64,000 nucleotides of DNA. It comes from Streptomyces sp. NBC_01460. Its GTDB lineage: Bacteria; Actinomycetota; Actinomycetes; Streptomycetales; Streptomycetaceae. Shown in pieces: positions 20,197 through 60,131 of the stretch (its first letter is position 1; each line of letters starts with the position of its first letter). The notes under the pieces were generated by a model that was not told the origin of the DNA, did no database searches, and saw nothing but the letters and a program-made list of their open reading frames with translations. A program made the position numbers and the translations under genes. The DNA lies in the NCBI RefSeq assembly GCF_036227405.1, contig NZ_CP109473.1, positions 4,774,001 to 4,838,000 on the forward strand, in the 5' to 3' direction.

Positions 20197-20229
20197 GGCC
20201 CCTCGCCCGGACCGTGCGGGGCGCCATGG

Positions 20230-20307
20230 GGGCTCTGCGTGGCACTGCATGGCGTCATGTGGCACCGCGGAGCTCCATGTGGCGCCACAAGGTGCCACGA
20301 GGTGCCA
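20230..20307. repeat. 10-bp-phased array of TGGCGCCA-like sites (upstream cluster)
   Basis: Eight 8-bp motifs begin at exactly 10-base intervals: 20230 GGGCTCTG, 20240 TGGCACTG, 20250 TGGCGTCA, 20260 TGGCACCG, 20270 GAGCTCCA, 20280 TGGCGCCA, 20290 AGGTGCCA and 20300 AGGTGCCA. Another lies at 20219 (GGGCGCCA), and two further ones at 20339 and 20350. The 10-base phasing puts all sites on one helix face, as expected for cooperative binding of a ribbon-helix-helix regulator such as the one encoded just downstream. Confidence 0.8.
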
Positions 20308-20430
20308 TTGGGGGTGTCTGGAACCTCGTGTTTCCGCGTGGCACCGCCTTGGCGCGCCGCGTAGTCGGCTCGTTTTCGCAGGTCAGGGCCGTTGAGTGCA
20401 GGTCGGTCCCCAGGTGGTCGTCGCGGGGGC

Positions 20431-20467
20431 TTGCGTGTGGCGCCATTGTGGTGCCATGATGGCGTCA
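20431..20467 (+). promoter_or_regulatory. Promoter-proximal operator cluster of the RHH gene
   Basis: TGGCGCCA (20438), TGGTGCCA (20449) and TGGCGTCA (20460) are spaced exactly 11 bases apart; the last base of the third site is the A of the ATG start codon. No Shine-Dalgarno precedes the ATG, so the mRNA may be leaderless. TTGCGT at 20431 and CATGAT at 20455 could be -35 and -10 elements 18 bases apart, which would place the sites within the promoter. The promoter is inferred. Confidence 0.6.
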
Positions 20468-20997
20468 TGGACCTCACGCCGTATGTCGACACCCTCCGCC
20501 GTGAACTCGCGGTGGCCGCCGAAGCCGGCGGAGAAGAAGCCCGCGAGCTGGCCGAGCGGCTCACCGCTCCACTGGAGTCGGCGACCCGCCTGACGATGCT
20601 CAACGTGCTCTCCGCCGCGATGGACGAGATCACCCGCGAGCTCGCCCCCGGCTCCGTCGACGTCCGGCTGCGCGGGCTCGACCCCGACTTCGTGGTGACG
20701 CGGCCGGCCGGCGCCGAGGCGTACGAGGCGGCCGAGCGTCCGGCCGAGCCGCTCAAGGCGCCGACCCCGGCGCCGGCCGACAGTGACGACGGCGGCACCG
20801 CCCGCGTCAACCTGCGCCTTCCCGCCCACCTCAAGGCGCGCGCCGAGGAGGCCGCGAACAGCGAGGGCCTGTCGGTCAACGCGTGGCTGGTGCGGGCCGT
20901 GTCGGCCGCGGTCGACGGCGGCCACCCGTCGCGTACGGCGGAGAAGACCCGTGCCACCCGCACCGTCGGACAGAGCTTCACCGGCTGGGTGCGCTAG
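20467..20997 (+). CDS. Ribbon-helix-helix regulator with N-terminal helical domain
   Basis: A 176-residue protein. The C-terminal part (residues 113-150) is a HicB/Arc-type RHH: beta strand RVNLRLP, helix AHLKARAEEAA, turn EGLS, helix VNAWLVRAVSAAV. The N-terminal 80 residues form a separate helical/beta domain (MDLTPYVDTLRRELAVAAEA), and residues 80-110 are a Pro/Ala linker. RHH proteins dimerise and insert the strand into the major groove, usually at tandem short repeats. Two phased arrays in front of this gene fit autoregulation. It leads an operon with a DUF4097 protein and an ABC transporter. Confidence 0.85.
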   Translation: MDLTPYVDTLRRELAVAAEAGGEEARELAERLTAPLESATRLTMLNVLSAAMDEITRELAPGSVDVRLRGLDPDFVVTRPAGAEAYEAAERPAEPLKAPTPAPADSDDGGTARVNLRLPAHLKARAEEAANSEGLSVNAWLVRAVSAAVDGGHPSRTAEKTRATRTVGQSFTGWVR

Positions 20998-21083: not shown

Positions 21084-21929
21084 ATGCCTTCTTTCGACAC
21101 CCCCGCAGCGATCTCGGTCACCGCCCACGTGGAGGCCGGATCCATCCGCCTCATCGCCACCGACCGTCTCGACACGCTCGTCGAGGTACGGCCCCGTGAC
21201 CCGAAGAAGGACCAAGACGTGCGGGCCGCCGAGCAGACCGAAGTGCACTGCGCGAACGGCCTGCTGACCCTCAGGACCCCCAAGCAGCGCTATCTCGTCG
21301 GGCGTACCGGCACCGTCGACGTGGCGGTCGAGCTGCCCGCCGGGTCGAAGGTGGAGATGACCGGGGCCTGGGCCCAGGTGTACGGCGAGGGCCGGCTCGG
21401 CGACGTCCGAGTGAAGACCTCGTCGGGCGACGTCCGCCTCGACACCACCGGGCCGCTGCACCTGACCGCGTCCCACGGCAGCATCACCGTGGAGCACGTC
21501 GCGGGGTCCGCCGAGATCACCACCAGCTCCGGCAGCATGCGCGTCGGCACCATCGAGGGCACGGCCGTCCTGAAGAACTCGCACGGCACCACGATCATCG
21601 GCGAGGCCCTGGGGGACCTGCGCGTCCGTGGCGCCAACGGAGACATCCACATCGAGCGCGCCGAGGCCTCGGTCTCCGCCACCACCGCCCACGGCACCCT
21701 GCGCGTCGGTGACGTCGCCCGCGGAACCGTCCAGCTGGAGACCTCCTACGGGGCCATCGAGATCGGCATCCGTGAGGGCACGGCCGCCTGGATCGACGCC
21801 GGCTCGGGCTCCGGCCAGGTGCACAACGCGCTCACCGCTTCCGAGAGCCCGGAGTCGTCCGAGGACACCGTCGAGGTCAAGGCCCGTACCCGCTTCGGCA
21901 ACATCGAGATCCGCCGCGCCAAGCCCTGA
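21084..21929 (+). CDS. DUF4097 beta-helix-like repeat protein
   Basis: A 281-residue protein starting MPSFDTPAAISVTAHVEAG. It is built of short repeated beta units: VRVKTSSGDVRLDTTG, LHLTASHGSITVEHV, AEITTSSGSMRVGTI, AVLKNSHGTTIIGEA, LRVRGANGDIHIERA and so on, about ten turns of a DUF4097 solenoid. No signal peptide is present. Proteins of this family are often linked to envelope stress or transport operons. Here it sits between the RHH regulator (86-base gap) and the ABC transporter (61-base gap), so it may be a partner or sensor of the transporter. Confidence 0.87.
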   Translation: MPSFDTPAAISVTAHVEAGSIRLIATDRLDTLVEVRPRDPKKDQDVRAAEQTEVHCANGLLTLRTPKQRYLVGRTGTVDVAVELPAGSKVEMTGAWAQVYGEGRLGDVRVKTSSGDVRLDTTGPLHLTASHGSITVEHVAGSAEITTSSGSMRVGTIEGTAVLKNSHGTTIIGEALGDLRVRGANGDIHIERAEASVSATTAHGTLRVGDVARGTVQLETSYGAIEIGIREGTAAWIDAGSGSGQVHNALTASESPESSEDTVEVKARTRFGNIEIRRAKP

Positions 21930-21990: not shown

Positions 21991-23010
21991 ATGCCTTTTT
22001 CTGTCATGCCCATGCCTAGTCAAGGTGATGTCCAGCCGTCGTCCGTCGCCGTCTCCGCGGTCGGGCTGCGGAAGTCCTACGGTGACAAGACGGTCCTGGA
22101 CGGCGTCGATCTGCGGATTCCCGCGGGGTCGGTCTTCGCGCTGCTGGGGCCGAACGGTGCCGGTAAGACGACGGTCGTGAAGATCCTGTCCACGCTGATC
22201 TCCGGGAGCGGTGGTCAGGCCCAGGTCGGAGGCCACGACGTGGCCGCCTCGCCTGAGGCGGTGCGCAGTGTGATCGGTGTGACGGGTCAGTTCTCGGCGG
22301 TGGACGGGCTGATCACGGGTGAGGAGAACATGCTCCTCATGGCGGACCTGCACCACCTGTCGAAGGCGGAGGGGCGGCGGGTGACCGCGGAGCTCCTGGA
22401 GCGCTTCGATCTGGTGGAGGCGGCGAAGAAGCCGGCCGCGAGCTACTCCGGCGGTATGAAGCGGCGACTGGACATCGCGATGACGCTGGTGGGCGGCCCC
22501 CGGATCATCTTCCTCGACGAGCCCACCACCGGGCTCGACCCCCGGGCCCGTCACACCATGTGGGGCATCATCCGCGAGCTCGTCACCGACGGGGTCACCG
22601 TCTTCCTGACCACGCAGTACCTGGAGGAGGCCGACGAACTCGCCGACCACATCGCCGTCCTCCACGACGGCCGCATCGCCGCCGAAGGCAGTGCCGACCA
22701 GCTCAAGCGGCTCGTCCCCGGCGGACACGTCCGCCTCCGCTTCACCGACCCCGCCGCCTACCGCTCCGCCACCACCACGCTGAACGAGGCCACCGGCGAC
22801 GACGAATCCCTCACCGTACGCATCCCCAGCGACGGCAGCCAGCGCGAACTGCGCTCCATCCTGGACTGGTTGGACAGCGCCGGCATCGAGGCCGACGAGC
22901 TGACCGTCCACACCCCCGACCTCGACGACGTCTTCTTCGCCCTCACCGGCACCACCGACGACCACAACCAGCCGAGCCAGCCGAACCAGCCGAAGGCGGA
23001 TGTCCGATGA
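21991..23010 (+). CDS. ABC transporter ATP-binding protein, daunorubicin-resistance (DrrA) type
   Basis: A 339-residue ATPase. Walker [10 protein letters not shown] at residues 53-61, signature YSGGMKRRLDIA, Walker [13 protein letters not shown] and the DrrA-type tail (AEGSADQLKRLVPGG, then DLDDVFFALTG) are all present. The start at 21991 has GGAGGACTCC upstream. The DrrA subfamily pairs with an ABC-2 permease and exports hydrophobic compounds. The stop overlaps the permease ATG by four bases. Confidence 0.93.
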   Translation: MPFSVMPMPSQGDVQPSSVAVSAVGLRKSYGDKTVLDGVDLRIPAGSVFALLGPNGAGKTTVVKILSTLISGSGGQAQVGGHDVAASPEAVRSVIGVTGQFSAVDGLITGEENMLLMADLHHLSKAEGRRVTAELLERFDLVEAAKKPAASYSGGMKRRLDIAMTLVGGPRIIFLDEPTTGLDPRARHTMWGIIRELVTDGVTVFLTTQYLEEADELADHIAVLHDGRIAAEGSADQLKRLVPGGHVRLRFTDPAAYRSATTTLNEATGDDESLTVRIPSDGSQRELRSILDWLDSAGIEADELTVHTPDLDDVFFALTGTTDDHNQPSQPNQPKADVR

Positions 23011-23798
23011 GCACCCTCTCCCTCGCCGTGCGTGACTCCACCACGATGCTGCGCCGCAACCTCCTGCACGCCCGCCGCTACCCGTCGATGACCCTGAACC
23101 TGCTGCTCACCCCGGTCATGCTCCTGCTGCTCTTCGTCTACATCTTCGGCGACGTCATGAGCGCCGGCATCGGCGGAGGCGGTGCGGACCGCTCCGACTA
23201 CATCGCGTACATCGTCCCGGGCATCCTGCTGATGACCATCGGCAGCGCCGTCGTCGGGGCCGCGGTGTCCGTCTCGATGGACATGACGGAGGGGATCATC
23301 GCCCGCTTCCGGACGATGGCGATCCACCGCGGGTCGGTGCTCATCGGGCACGTCCTCGGCAGCGTCCTGCAGTCCATCGCCGCCGTCGTCCTCGTGGGAG
23401 CCGTCGGCGTGGCCATCGGCTTCCGCTCCGTGGACGCCACCGCTCTGGAGTGGCTGGCAGCCTTCGGGCTCCTCGCCCTCTTCGCCCTCGCCCTGACCTG
23501 GATCGCGGTCGGGATGGGCATGGCCAGTCCGAACGTGGAGGCGGCCGGCAACAGCGCGATGCCGCTGATCCTGCTGCCCCTCATCTCCAGCGCCTTCACC
23601 CCGGTCGACGCCATGCCCGGCTGGTTCCGGCCGATCGCCGAGTACCAGCCCTTCACCCCCGCCATCGAAACCCTCCGCGGCCTCCTCCTGGGCACCGAGA
23701 TCGGCCACAACGGCTGGCTCGCCCTCGCCTGGACCGTCGCCCTGACCGGACTCGGCTACTACTGGTCGACCTCGATGTTCAAGCGCGACCCGAAGTAG
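23007..23798 (+). CDS. ABC-2 type permease (DrrB-like)
   Basis: A 263-residue permease with six hydrophobic helices (residues about 28-46, 66-90, 110-135, 143-165, 172-195 and 235-253). It carries the DrrB-type motif MTEGIIARFRTMAIHRGSVLIGHV. It is coupled to the ATPase by an ATGA overlap and forms the exporter core with it. A strong hairpin follows the stop. Confidence 0.92.
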   Translation: MSTLSLAVRDSTTMLRRNLLHARRYPSMTLNLLLTPVMLLLLFVYIFGDVMSAGIGGGGADRSDYIAYIVPGILLMTIGSAVVGAAVSVSMDMTEGIIARFRTMAIHRGSVLIGHVLGSVLQSIAAVVLVGAVGVAIGFRSVDATALEWLAAFGLLALFALALTWIAVGMGMASPNVEAAGNSAMPLILLPLISSAFTPVDAMPGWFRPIAEYQPFTPAIETLRGLLLGTEIGHNGWLALAWTVALTGLGYYWSTSMFKRDPK

Positions 23799-53545: not shown

Positions 53546-55573
53546 ATGATCACCGCACTGCTCGTCGCCAACCGGGGCGAGATCGCCTGCCGGATCTTCC
53601 GCACCTGCCGGGAGCTGGGCATCGCCACCGTCGCCGTGTACTCCGACGCGGACGCCGGCGCCCTGCACGTACGGGAGGCCGACACCGCCGTACGCCTGCC
53701 GGGGTCCGCCCCCGCCGACACCTATCTGCGCGGCGACCTCGTCGTCGCCGCCGCGCTCGCCGCCGGTGCCGACGCCGTGCACCCGGGGTACGGCTTCCTC
53801 TCCGAGAACGCCGGGTTCGCCCGGGCCGTGCAGGACGCGGGCCTCGTCTGGGTGGGCCCGCCGGTGAAGGCCGTCGAGCTGATGGCGTCCAAGACCCGGG
53901 CCAAGGAGCTGATGGCCGCCGCCGGGGTCCCCCTCCTCGCCCCGGTCGACCCGGGGAGCGCCACCGCGTCGGACCTCCCCCTGCTGCTGAAGGCGGCGGC
54001 GGGCGGGGGCGGGCGCGGGATGCGGATCGTCCGGGAGCTCTCCGCGCTGCCGGAGGAGCTGACCGCCGCCTCCGCCGAGGCCACCTCCGCCTTCGGGGAC
54101 GGCGAGGTCTTCGCCGAGCCCTACGTGGAGCGGGGCCGTCATGTCGAGGTCCAGGTCATGGCGGACGGGCAGGGCACGGTGTGGGCGCTCGGCACCCGCG
54201 ACTGCTCCCTCCAGCGCCGCCACCAGAAGGTGATCGAGGAGGCTCCCGCACCCGGCCTCGACGAGGAGCTGCGCGGCATGCTCCACGACGCGGCGGTCGC
54301 CGCCGCGCGGGCGGTCGGCTACCGGGGCGCGGGGACCGTCGAGTTCCTCGTGTCGGCCGAGGGGCGCCCGTACTTCCTGGAGATGAACACCCGCCTCCAG
54401 GTCGAGCACCCCGTCACGGAAGCGGTGTTCGGCCTCGATCTGGTCGCCCTCCAGCTGCGGGTCGCGGAGGGCGGGGCGCTGCCCGCCGCCACGCCCCCGG
54501 AGCCGGCCGGACACGCCGTCGAGGCCCGGCTCTACGCCGAGGACCCGGCCCGTGACTGGCAGCCGCAGACCGGAGCACTGCTCACGCTCGACGTGCCCCA
54601 CGCACCCGGCATCCGCCTCGACACCGGATACACCGGCGGCGACACCGTCGGGATGCACTACGACCCGATGCTCGCCAAGGTCATCGCCCACGCCCCCACC
54701 CGCACCGAGGCCGTCCGCCTCCTCGCGCGGGCCCTCGAACGCGCCCGCGTCCACGGCCCGGTCACCAACCGGGAGCTGCTCGTACGCTCCCTGCGTCACC
54801 CCGACTTCGTCGCGGGGCACCTCGACACCGGCTTCTACGACCGGCACCTGGGCGTACTGACGGCGACCGGAGCCCCCGGTGACGACGACGCCCGCCGCGT
54901 CGCCGCCACGGCGGCGGCGCTGGCCGCGGCCTCGGCCGCGAGCAGCGGACCGGGCCCCGCGCGCTCCGGGGCCTGGCGCAACCTCGCCTCGCAGGCACAG
55001 ACCAGGCGCTACCGCGCCGAGCCCGACGGGAGCGCGTACGAGATCGCCTACCGCACCGGCCGGGACGGCGTCCCCGCCCCCGTCACCGGCGAACGGGTCC
55101 TCTCGGCCCGCCCGGACGCCGTCACCCTCGAAACGGGCGGCGTGACACGGCACTTCGCCGTCACCGCGCACGGCGACCGCGTCCACGTGGACACGGCCGC
55201 CGGCGCCCACACCTTCACCGTCCTGCCCCGCTTCACCGACCCCGCCGAACGCACCGAACCCGGCTCCCTCCTCGCCCCGATGCCCGGCACCGTCGTGCGT
55301 CTCGCGGACGGACTGGCCCCGGGCGCGCCCGTCGAGGCGGGGCAGCCGCTGATCTGGCTGGAGGCGATGAAGATGGAACACCGCATCCTCGCCCCCGCCT
55401 CCGGCACCCTCACCGCGCTCCACGCCGCCCCCGGACTCCAGGTCGAGGTCGGCGCTCTGCTCGCCGTCGTACAGGACGCACCCGTGCACGCATCCGACGC
55501 ACCCGTGCACGCATCCGACGCACCCACGCAGGCATCCGACGCAACCGCGCACCAGGAGGAGACGACTCCATGA
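53546..55573 (+). CDS. Acyl-CoA carboxylase alpha subunit (biotin carboxylase-BCCP)
   Basis: A 675-residue protein. The biotin carboxylase domain (residues 1-445) has the ATP-grasp loop KAAAGGGGRGMRIV and EMNTRLQVEHPVTE. A BT linker domain is followed by BCCP with EAMKMEH, biotinyl-Lys609. The last 35 residues contain three tandem APVHASD-type heptapeptides, an unusual tail beyond the BCCP. It starts seven bases after the beta subunit. The pair forms the holoenzyme. Confidence 0.93.
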   Translation: MITALLVANRGEIACRIFRTCRELGIATVAVYSDADAGALHVREADTAVRLPGSAPADTYLRGDLVVAAALAAGADAVHPGYGFLSENAGFARAVQDAGLVWVGPPVKAVELMASKTRAKELMAAAGVPLLAPVDPGSATASDLPLLLKAAAGGGGRGMRIVRELSALPEELTAASAEATSAFGDGEVFAEPYVERGRHVEVQVMADGQGTVWALGTRDCSLQRRHQKVIEEAPAPGLDEELRGMLHDAAVAAARAVGYRGAGTVEFLVSAEGRPYFLEMNTRLQVEHPVTEAVFGLDLVALQLRVAEGGALPAATPPEPAGHAVEARLYAEDPARDWQPQTGALLTLDVPHAPGIRLDTGYTGGDTVGMHYDPMLAKVIAHAPTRTEAVRLLARALERARVHGPVTNRELLVRSLRHPDFVAGHLDTGFYDRHLGVLTATGAPGDDDARRVAATAAALAAASAASSGPGPARSGAWRNLASQAQTRRYRAEPDGSAYEIAYRTGRDGVPAPVTGERVLSARPDAVTLETGGVTRHFAVTAHGDRVHVDTAAGAHTFTVLPRFTDPAERTEPGSLLAPMPGTVVRLADGLAPGAPVEAGQPLIWLEAMKMEHRILAPASGTLTALHAAPGLQVEVGALLAVVQDAPVHASDAPVHASDAPTQASDATAHQEETTP

Positions 55574-59820: not shown

Positions 59821-59920
59821 CGCCCGTCGGTCGGCACGCGCGCCCGTCGGCCGGTACGCGCGCCCGTCGGCCGGTACGCGCGCCCGTCGGTCGGCACGCG
59901 CGCCCGTCGGCCGGTACGCG
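59821..59920. repeat. Five exact 20-bp tandem units
   Basis: The unit CGCCCGTCGGyCGGyACGCG occurs five times without gaps (59821, 59841, 59861, 59881, 59901), in the order TC, CT, CT, TC, CT at the two variable bases. No spacers are present, so it is not a CRISPR. It lies between the TetR gene and the leader hairpin of the secreted-protein cassette; the stretch 59716-60187 otherwise holds no supported gene. Confidence 0.9.
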
Positions 59921-60131
59921 CCCCGAGCGAACCACCCCGCCGACTCCTCCCGTCGGCTCCGGCACGTGGCACGTTCATATACCCCCGTAGCGGAAAGAAA
60001 CCACCAAGGTGATCACTTGCATGCCACGTGACAAAGGCCTACCAGCGCGACAGTCGACGGCGAGTCCACGCCGTATCCGCTCAACATATTTCCTCTGTCG
60101 ATGAATGACACCGGTGCTACAGTCACGCGGT

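Follow-up and report, generated by a model that had tools for sequence, protein, structure and literature searches.

MetJ regulates its own expression through ribbon-helix-helix (RHH) dimers that bind tandem short operators of 8-bp units. The omega protein of plasmid pSM19035 likewise acts as autoregulatory RHH dimers on tandem short operators, here of 7-bp units (PMC4803016). In type II plasmid partition, the RHH protein ParR binds the direct repeats of parC upstream of its own operon, with repeats of 11 bp in R1 and 10 bp in pB171, and the C-terminal tail of ParR docks its partner (PMC9426499, PMC5016525). In Actinobacteria, comparative genomics has described an operon in which an RHH factor is encoded beside Toastrack (DUF4097) and ABC genes, and Toastrack proteins were proposed to assemble sub-membrane signalling complexes (PMC11237479, mSystems 2024). 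The accessible part of that operon account gives no operator, promoter or DNA specificity (PMC11237479).

Here, we analysed 64,000 nucleotides of an 8.8-Mb Streptomyces genome (C1:4774001-4838000, referred to as the window), which carry an operon apparently of the same type. An array of phased palindromes was identified upstream of its RHH gene, and this array is probably the RHH protein's own switch for the Toastrack and exporter operon.

The array and its operon in the window

The intergenic region 20197-20468, which lies between the end of a histidine phosphatase gene (20196) and the start of the RHH gene (20467), contained ten sites matching TGGYRYCA at 7/8 positions or better, with five pairs spaced at 10 or 11 bp. 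In 5000 dinucleotide shuffles of the same region, the means were 1.55 sites and 0.022 pairs and the maxima 7 and 2; none of the 5000 reached the observed site or pair count. The array region was also the top-scoring tile of the whole window. Single TGGCGCCA-like words showed no enrichment over the window as a whole (35 against 56 expected), and the unusual property was their clustering and phasing. Two tandem repeats were also noted in the window, at 59821-59925 (20 bp, 5.3 copies, 91% match) and 55475-55552 (21 bp, 3.7 copies, 89% match); both are outside the array finding.

As shown in Table 1, the sites fell into distal, intermediate, and proximal groups. The three proximal sites stood at exact 11-bp steps, as the initial annotation had described, and the last base of the third was the A of the ATG. 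The same annotation had counted eight motifs at 10-bp steps in the distal group. This number was reduced to five good sites and one moderate site with a gap, because 20230 (GGGCTCTG) and 20270 (GAGCTCCA) matched TGGYRYCA at four and five of eight positions, respectively, and were ruled out as sites. Among the three single sites that it had listed, those at 20219 and 20339 were retained, while 20350 proved weaker.

Table 1 Features of the array and the operon, in window coordinates (n/8, matching positions of a site)
Feature	Position	Strand	Details
Distal outlier site GGGCGCCA	20219..20226	.	7/8
Distal 10-bp-step cluster	20240..20307	.	20240 (6/8); 20250, 20260, 20280, 20290, 20300 (at least 7/8); 20270 slot degenerate (5/8). 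Sequences: 20240 TGGCACTG, 20250 TGGCGTCA, 20260 TGGCACCG, 20280 TGGCGCCA, 20290 AGGTGCCA, 20300 AGGTGCCA
Intermediate sites, 11 bp apart	20339..20357	.	20339 TGGCACCG (7/8), 20350 TGGCGCGC (6/8)
Predicted -35 hexamer TTGCGT	20431..20436	+	TTG at -36 (71) or -35 (21) in 92/96 N-type loci
Proximal operator site 1 TGGCGCCA (-29)	20438..20445	.	Full TGGYRYCA match
Proximal operator site 2 TGGTGCCA (-18)	20449..20456	.	Full TGGYRYCA match
Predicted -10 hexamer CATGAT	20455..20460	+	Formed by the edges of sites 2 and 3 plus the 3-bp spacer
Proximal operator site 3 TGGCGTCA (-7)	20460..20467	.	Full TGGYRYCA match; overlaps start codon
RHH repressor gene (putative)	20467..20997	+	176 aa; N-terminal domain, linker, RHH, conserved tail GQSFTGWVR
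DUF4097 (Toastrack) protein gene	21084..21929	+	Pfam PF13349, E 1e-12
DrrA-like ABC ATPase gene	21991..23010 (exact start uncertain)	+	TIGR01188, E 9e-93, 310.8 bits, just under the cut-off of 312.45
DrrB-like ABC-2 permease gene	23007..23798	+	PF01061, E 1e-24; TIGR01247, E 2e-17, 64 bits, under the cut-off of 223

Family matches bore out the assignment of DUF4097 and DrrAB-like genes after the RHH gene, and the envelope/export reading of the operon fits the published class of Toastrack-ABC-RHH operons (PMC11237479). In genome G637 (L248:273-1323), what by eye seems a degraded RHH gene lies, together with scattered sites, next to a further DrrA-like ATPase gene that shares 62% identity with that of the window.

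The RHH domain was located at the C-terminus of the protein (about residues 111-149), in agreement with the initial annotation. In the AF2 model (overall pLDDT 73, pTM 0.39), it formed helices at 120-133 and 137-149, and the N-terminal domain (about residues 1-80) consisted of two long helices and a beta hairpin, with block pLDDT values of 84-97 for residues 1-50 and 63-73 for residues 51-80; the linker and the C-terminal end with GQSFTGWVR were of low confidence. A sequence search against solved structures gave weak RHH matches (AtaR at E 0.003, Mnt, and Arc), and a Foldseek search against the PDB gave matches including Arc, NikA, CopG, and FitA, none of them below E 0.001. TAL-effector matches in the solved structures were rejected as sums of many tiny repeat alignments. 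In the search for defence-system families, none was found for the RHH and DUF4097 proteins. Alignment of 25 homologues indicated a ribbon of the form R113-x-N115-x-R117, in which R113 and R117 were invariant and residue 115 was variable. This R-x-N-x-R pattern resembles the Arc ribbon, Q9/N11/R13.

The protein matched Pfam HicB (PF05534) with 25.2 bits against a cut-off of 21, which points to a HicB-like DNA-binding domain. HicB was matched by 48 of 52 family members, and RHH_1, RHH_5, and Arc were matched in other members. Hence the protein might be read as an antitoxin of the HicB type that controls its own toxin-antitoxin operon, and HicB is indeed described as an exception among antitoxins in that its DNA binding is not via the N-terminus (PMC4803016). 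However, no HicA or other toxin family was found in the five neighbouring proteins scanned (DUF4097, ABC ATPase, ABC-2 permease, histidine phosphatase, and LysR), and the partners are Toastrack and an ABC exporter. We consider an antitoxin role very improbable.

Conservation of the array and its promoter

The RHH protein was found (E ≤ 0.001) in 65 of 101 genomes of the genus. We then examined the 330 bp upstream of 70 orthologous and paralogous genes. Sites matching at 7/8 positions or better numbered 545, whereas 100 rounds of shuffling gave 91 on average and 119 at most; such sites started at -29 in 60, at -18 in 52, and at -7 in 57 of these regions. The spacings of distal pairs peaked at 10 bp (115 pairs), 20 bp (74), 30 bp (41), and 21 bp (29), compared with about 0.3 each in the shuffles. 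The phasing in orthologues, on which the initial annotation had staked its proposal, was thus strongly kept in the genus, as it was in the phylum (see below). When one mismatch was allowed, the three-site pattern occurred in 40 of the 101 genomes; all 40 were among the 65 RHH-positive genomes and none among the 36 others. The reversed-pattern control was found in one genome (G042).

Two of the three-site matches were off-locus, both in RHH-positive genomes. One of them (L121:1915-1989, genome G035), inspected by eye, showed the same array and a leaderless-looking ATG before a cytochrome P450-like gene, near a polyketide/reductase-like gene, and it is possible that the operator was recruited there in trans. 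The other (L122:2120-2213, genome G015) was a phased array seen by eye between GtrA-like and DUF4239-like genes. A regulon search of the window's own genome, using two-site patterns with one mismatch, revealed no second array: the matches, the known array included, numbered 4 and 6 at 11 bp and 7 and 2 at 10 bp, which was close to the 6 and 7 and the 4 and 2 of the respective reversed-pattern controls. The sole exact extra pair in the genome (C1:243043, L252) was rejected, as it falls within an inverted repeat that is long and perfect and probably forms a terminator stem.

A separate element, TTCGCAGGTCAGGGC, was noted at 20375-20389 of the window, between the distal and proximal clusters. Within one mismatch, CGCAGGTCAG was present in 27 of the 70 upstream regions (22 forward, 5 inverted only), compared with 3 of 70 shuffled regions. 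It was considered as a component of the switch and set aside, since it occurs in both orientations and is also scattered through the rest of the genome, with one inverted pair at C1:7323118-7323151.

The RHH protein also has homologues in other families and classes, with 38 of 296 genomes positive in one search and 66 of 396 in a profile search; many of the weakest homologues in these searches covered the RHH part only. Among the named records were Acidimicrobiia, Thermoleophilia (Solirubrobacterales), Rhodococcus, Micromonospora, Nonomuraea, Actinomadura, Cellulomonadaceae, and Promicromonosporaceae. We assembled 188 loci with a profile match of E ≤ 1e-8 and distinct upstream sequence, among which close relatives remain. 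Phased perfect TG....CA pairs within 400 bp upstream were present in 153 of the 188 loci, compared with 10 of 1848 background tiles taken from the same loci; the remaining 35 had no perfect phased pair. Phased palindromes occupied -18 and -7 in 105 loci, and exactly -29, -18, and -7 in 83. By the looser criterion of at least 7/8 matches to TGRYRYCA, applied to 80 named records, all three proximal sites were found at the same positions in 3/3 Acidimicrobiia and 2/2 Thermoleophilia. The array was further upstream in several distant homologues (L094, L096, and L106), where a small open frame separates it from the RHH gene. Outside Streptomycetaceae, extra sites tended toward -50, -61, and -72, positions that would extend the 11-bp register through the -35 element.

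A DUF4097 gene was located at most 2.6 kb downstream in 174 of the 188 loci. The GW motif formed the protein end in 160 loci, and many of the other 28 had an R-x-x-G-[YFT]-like ending. The GW tail was kept in 142/142 N-type proteins with DUF4097 downstream, and it was lost in L068 and L069, which have no DUF4097 in the fetched DNA. However, two N-type loci that also lack DUF4097 in the fetched DNA (L064 and L066) kept the tail, which argues against a strict link between tail and Toastrack.

These features bear on the reading in which the RHH protein belongs to a segrosome and the array acts as its centromere-type site, in ParR/parC-like partition or nucleoid organisation. RHH repeats of 10 or 11 bp are the design of parC in pB171 and R1, the R1 repeats flank the par promoter (PMC9426499, PMC5016525), and the family shares with ParR a conserved C-terminal tail. 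On the other hand, no ParM, ParA, or TubZ-like family was found among the five neighbouring proteins scanned, a second array was not found in the window's own genome, the gene was not found in 36 of 101 congeners, and the usual partner (174/188) is a Toastrack gene. Partition is accordingly given hardly any weight here.

Promoter geometry was compared at 123 of the 188 loci. Of these, 96 were N115 loci, drawn from the genus search and the named records added later, that have a perfect site at -18 or -7; the remaining 27 were loci with S/T or other residues as well as N115 loci of distant classes. In the 96 N115 loci, a CAYNAT-like hexamer was present at -12 to -7 (CATGAT in 38, CACTAT in 15, and CATCAT in 10), with a spacer of 18 or 17 bp to the TTG, and this geometry predicts transcription to start at the A of the ATG. 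An SD-like sequence between -16 and -3 was found in 0/96 of these loci and in 2/27 of the others. The -10 hexamer of the array promoters begins with C and not with the usual T; in S. coelicolor, the -10 motif is reported as TANNNT, and leaderless mRNAs arise from 21% of the primary start sites (PMC4895711). The leaderless start put forward in the initial annotation is favoured by the promoter geometry, and the RHH gene is probably leaderless. A2 and T6 of the -10 hexamer coincide with the end bases of sites 2 and 3, leaving exactly 3 bp between the two sites; this may plausibly account for a proximal step of 11 bp where the distal step is 10 bp. These observations suggest that start codon and operator are one sequence, with a leaderless promoter folded into the operator.

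At least three distal sites (7/8 or better to TGRYRYCA, phasing not required) were present in 40/48 Streptomycetaceae and 14/32 other named records. A clear 10-bp ladder outside the Streptomycetaceae label was seen in L175, L192, and L236, and the proteins of L175 and L236 are 83 and 81% identical to the RHH protein of the window. The distal 10-bp cluster is seen mainly in Streptomycetaceae. The between-locus phase coherence of distal sites relative to the promoter, uncorrected for ancestry, was 0.51 at 10.5 bp, 0.57 at 11.4 bp, and 0.34 at 10.2 bp (58 loci), and the best within-locus coherence of the distal cluster had a period of 10.2 bp. These values exceed a chance bound of 0.23, itself ignoring ancestry; since the coherence was not specific to 10.5 bp, no fixed helical phase between the distal and proximal clusters is claimed. 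The distal cluster might serve as a separate store of low affinity, or it might be a duplicate of the proximal operator that is decaying and has no function of its own. The number of distal sites varies from 0 to 9 among the 70 genus-search loci, the cluster is most regular in Streptomycetaceae, its helical phase to the promoter is not clearly fixed, and in the window one slot is degenerate and others are imperfect. Because the 10-bp spacing is nevertheless sharply kept (115 pairs against a shuffle mean of 0.3), we rate this reading as possible but on balance unlikely. It is compatible with our explanation of the proximal sites.

Covariation of residue 115 with operator base 3

The third base of the half-site differed with ribbon residue 115. 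Over all phased sites, it was G in 739, A in 150, and another base in 15 cases at N115 loci, whereas at S/T115 loci it was A in 125, G in 37, and another base in 10. The mean A fraction was 0.16 for N115 and 0.79 for S/T115, with similar G+C (0.714 and 0.693). Tests on a quick tree built without the ribbon residues used 152 of the 188 loci. Each of these had at least one perfect phased pair with an A or G half-site, a ribbon that could be read, and a near-complete N-terminus; in 37 of them residue 115 was not N but S or T, apart from a few cases of A and G. The PGLS slope was 0.46 (p 2e-15 at the fitted lambda of 0.67 and p 1e-5 at lambda 1). Greedy independent pairs, unfiltered for branch support, changed in the same direction in 6/6 cases; on supported branches only, two independent pairs remained, of which 1.8 agreed on average and none was opposed, too few for significance. 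The covariation is evidence that the RHH protein reads the array, and the case that the protein itself contacts base 3 of the operator is good but not conclusive.

An alternative is that another regulator binds the array and controls the operon, the RHH gene being merely adjacent. Binding by the RHH protein is deduced from sequence patterns, and three-site arrays stand off-locus in other genomes, before the P450-like gene of L121 and beside the DUF4239-like gene of L122. However, the RHH gene is present in both of those genomes, the three-site pattern is restricted to RHH-positive genomes (40/40) and usually ends on the RHH start codon, in other classes too, and the third base follows RHH residue 115. 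A different regulator is improbable on this evidence. Self-regulation by the RHH protein, as the initial annotation had supposed, is instead supported by the linkage, the co-occurrence, and the covariation of residue and operator.

Proposed switch and comparison with known systems

Overall, the explanation that we consider most likely, with fairly high confidence, is that the array is the operator of the adjacent RHH gene's product, which would autorepress the RHH-Toastrack-DrrAB operon. Each two-fold symmetric TGRYRYCA would be read by one RHH dimer, and successive dimers would sit about one helical turn apart on the same face of the DNA. Bound at -29, -18, and -7, three proximal dimers would lie over the promoter from its spacer through the -10 element to the start point, and would thereby shut the leaderless promoter. 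In streptomycetes, the distal 10-bp cluster may add cooperative binding, perhaps by wrapping or looping. Induction by tail capture was proposed from the published Toastrack survey and the tail pattern, and is the most speculative step: an envelope stress signal at the exporter/Toastrack complex might lead Toastrack to dock on the C-terminal tail of the repressor and release it, and the operon so induced would feed back on itself. Binding could also activate instead of repress.

A more elaborate form of the model is a chromosomal, non-segregating solenoid of the ParR/parC kind, in which up to about a dozen RHH dimers, one per turn, would wrap the promoter superhelically, with the 11-bp register fused with the -10 element and the ATG, and in which Toastrack would open the structure via the RHH tails. 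The proximal design would have been kept across Actinomycetota, with operator letter and ribbon residue apparently switched together more than once. We regard this composite picture as tentative and, taken whole, rather unlikely.

The autorepressor model offers a candidate DNA target, promoter, and specificity residue for a widespread actinobacterial Toastrack/export operon that was found in print solely as a gene neighbourhood. RHH specificity could be tested directly through the covariation of residue 115 with base 3, and the array offers a case for asking whether transcription control outside plasmid partition makes use of helically phased RHH dimers.

Compared with known systems, the protein fold and the autoregulation are of a known kind. 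The initial annotation had called the operator architecture undescribed. For this operon the statement holds within the literature searched, as no description of an operator of the RHH-Toastrack-DrrAB operon was found in open-licence PMC literature; phased RHH arrays as such are not new, because ParR of R1 and pB171, with repeats of 11 and 10 bp, respectively, is the nearest architectural precedent (PMC9426499, PMC5016525). The present array differs from parC in that its units are palindromes and the start codon lies inside it, and the protein differs from ParR in that its RHH domain is C-terminal after a helical domain and its partners are Toastrack and an ABC exporter, ParM not being found. 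Relative to the units of omega and MetJ, the 10- and 11-bp steps would place successive sites on one face of the helix. As for the phage repressors Arc and Mnt, Arc was among the best fold matches (none below E 0.001) and NFRMP of Mnt aligns with NLRLP of the RHH protein, but the matched chains have 53 and 76 residues and lack the N-domain, the tail, and the long array. A Toastrack protein (PF13349) in the operon is shared with stress operons of the PSP/Lia type. Within the literature searched, three features appear to be new: the operator that this operon carries, the way it is fused to the promoter and the start codon in several classes of the phylum, and the covariation of residue and base.
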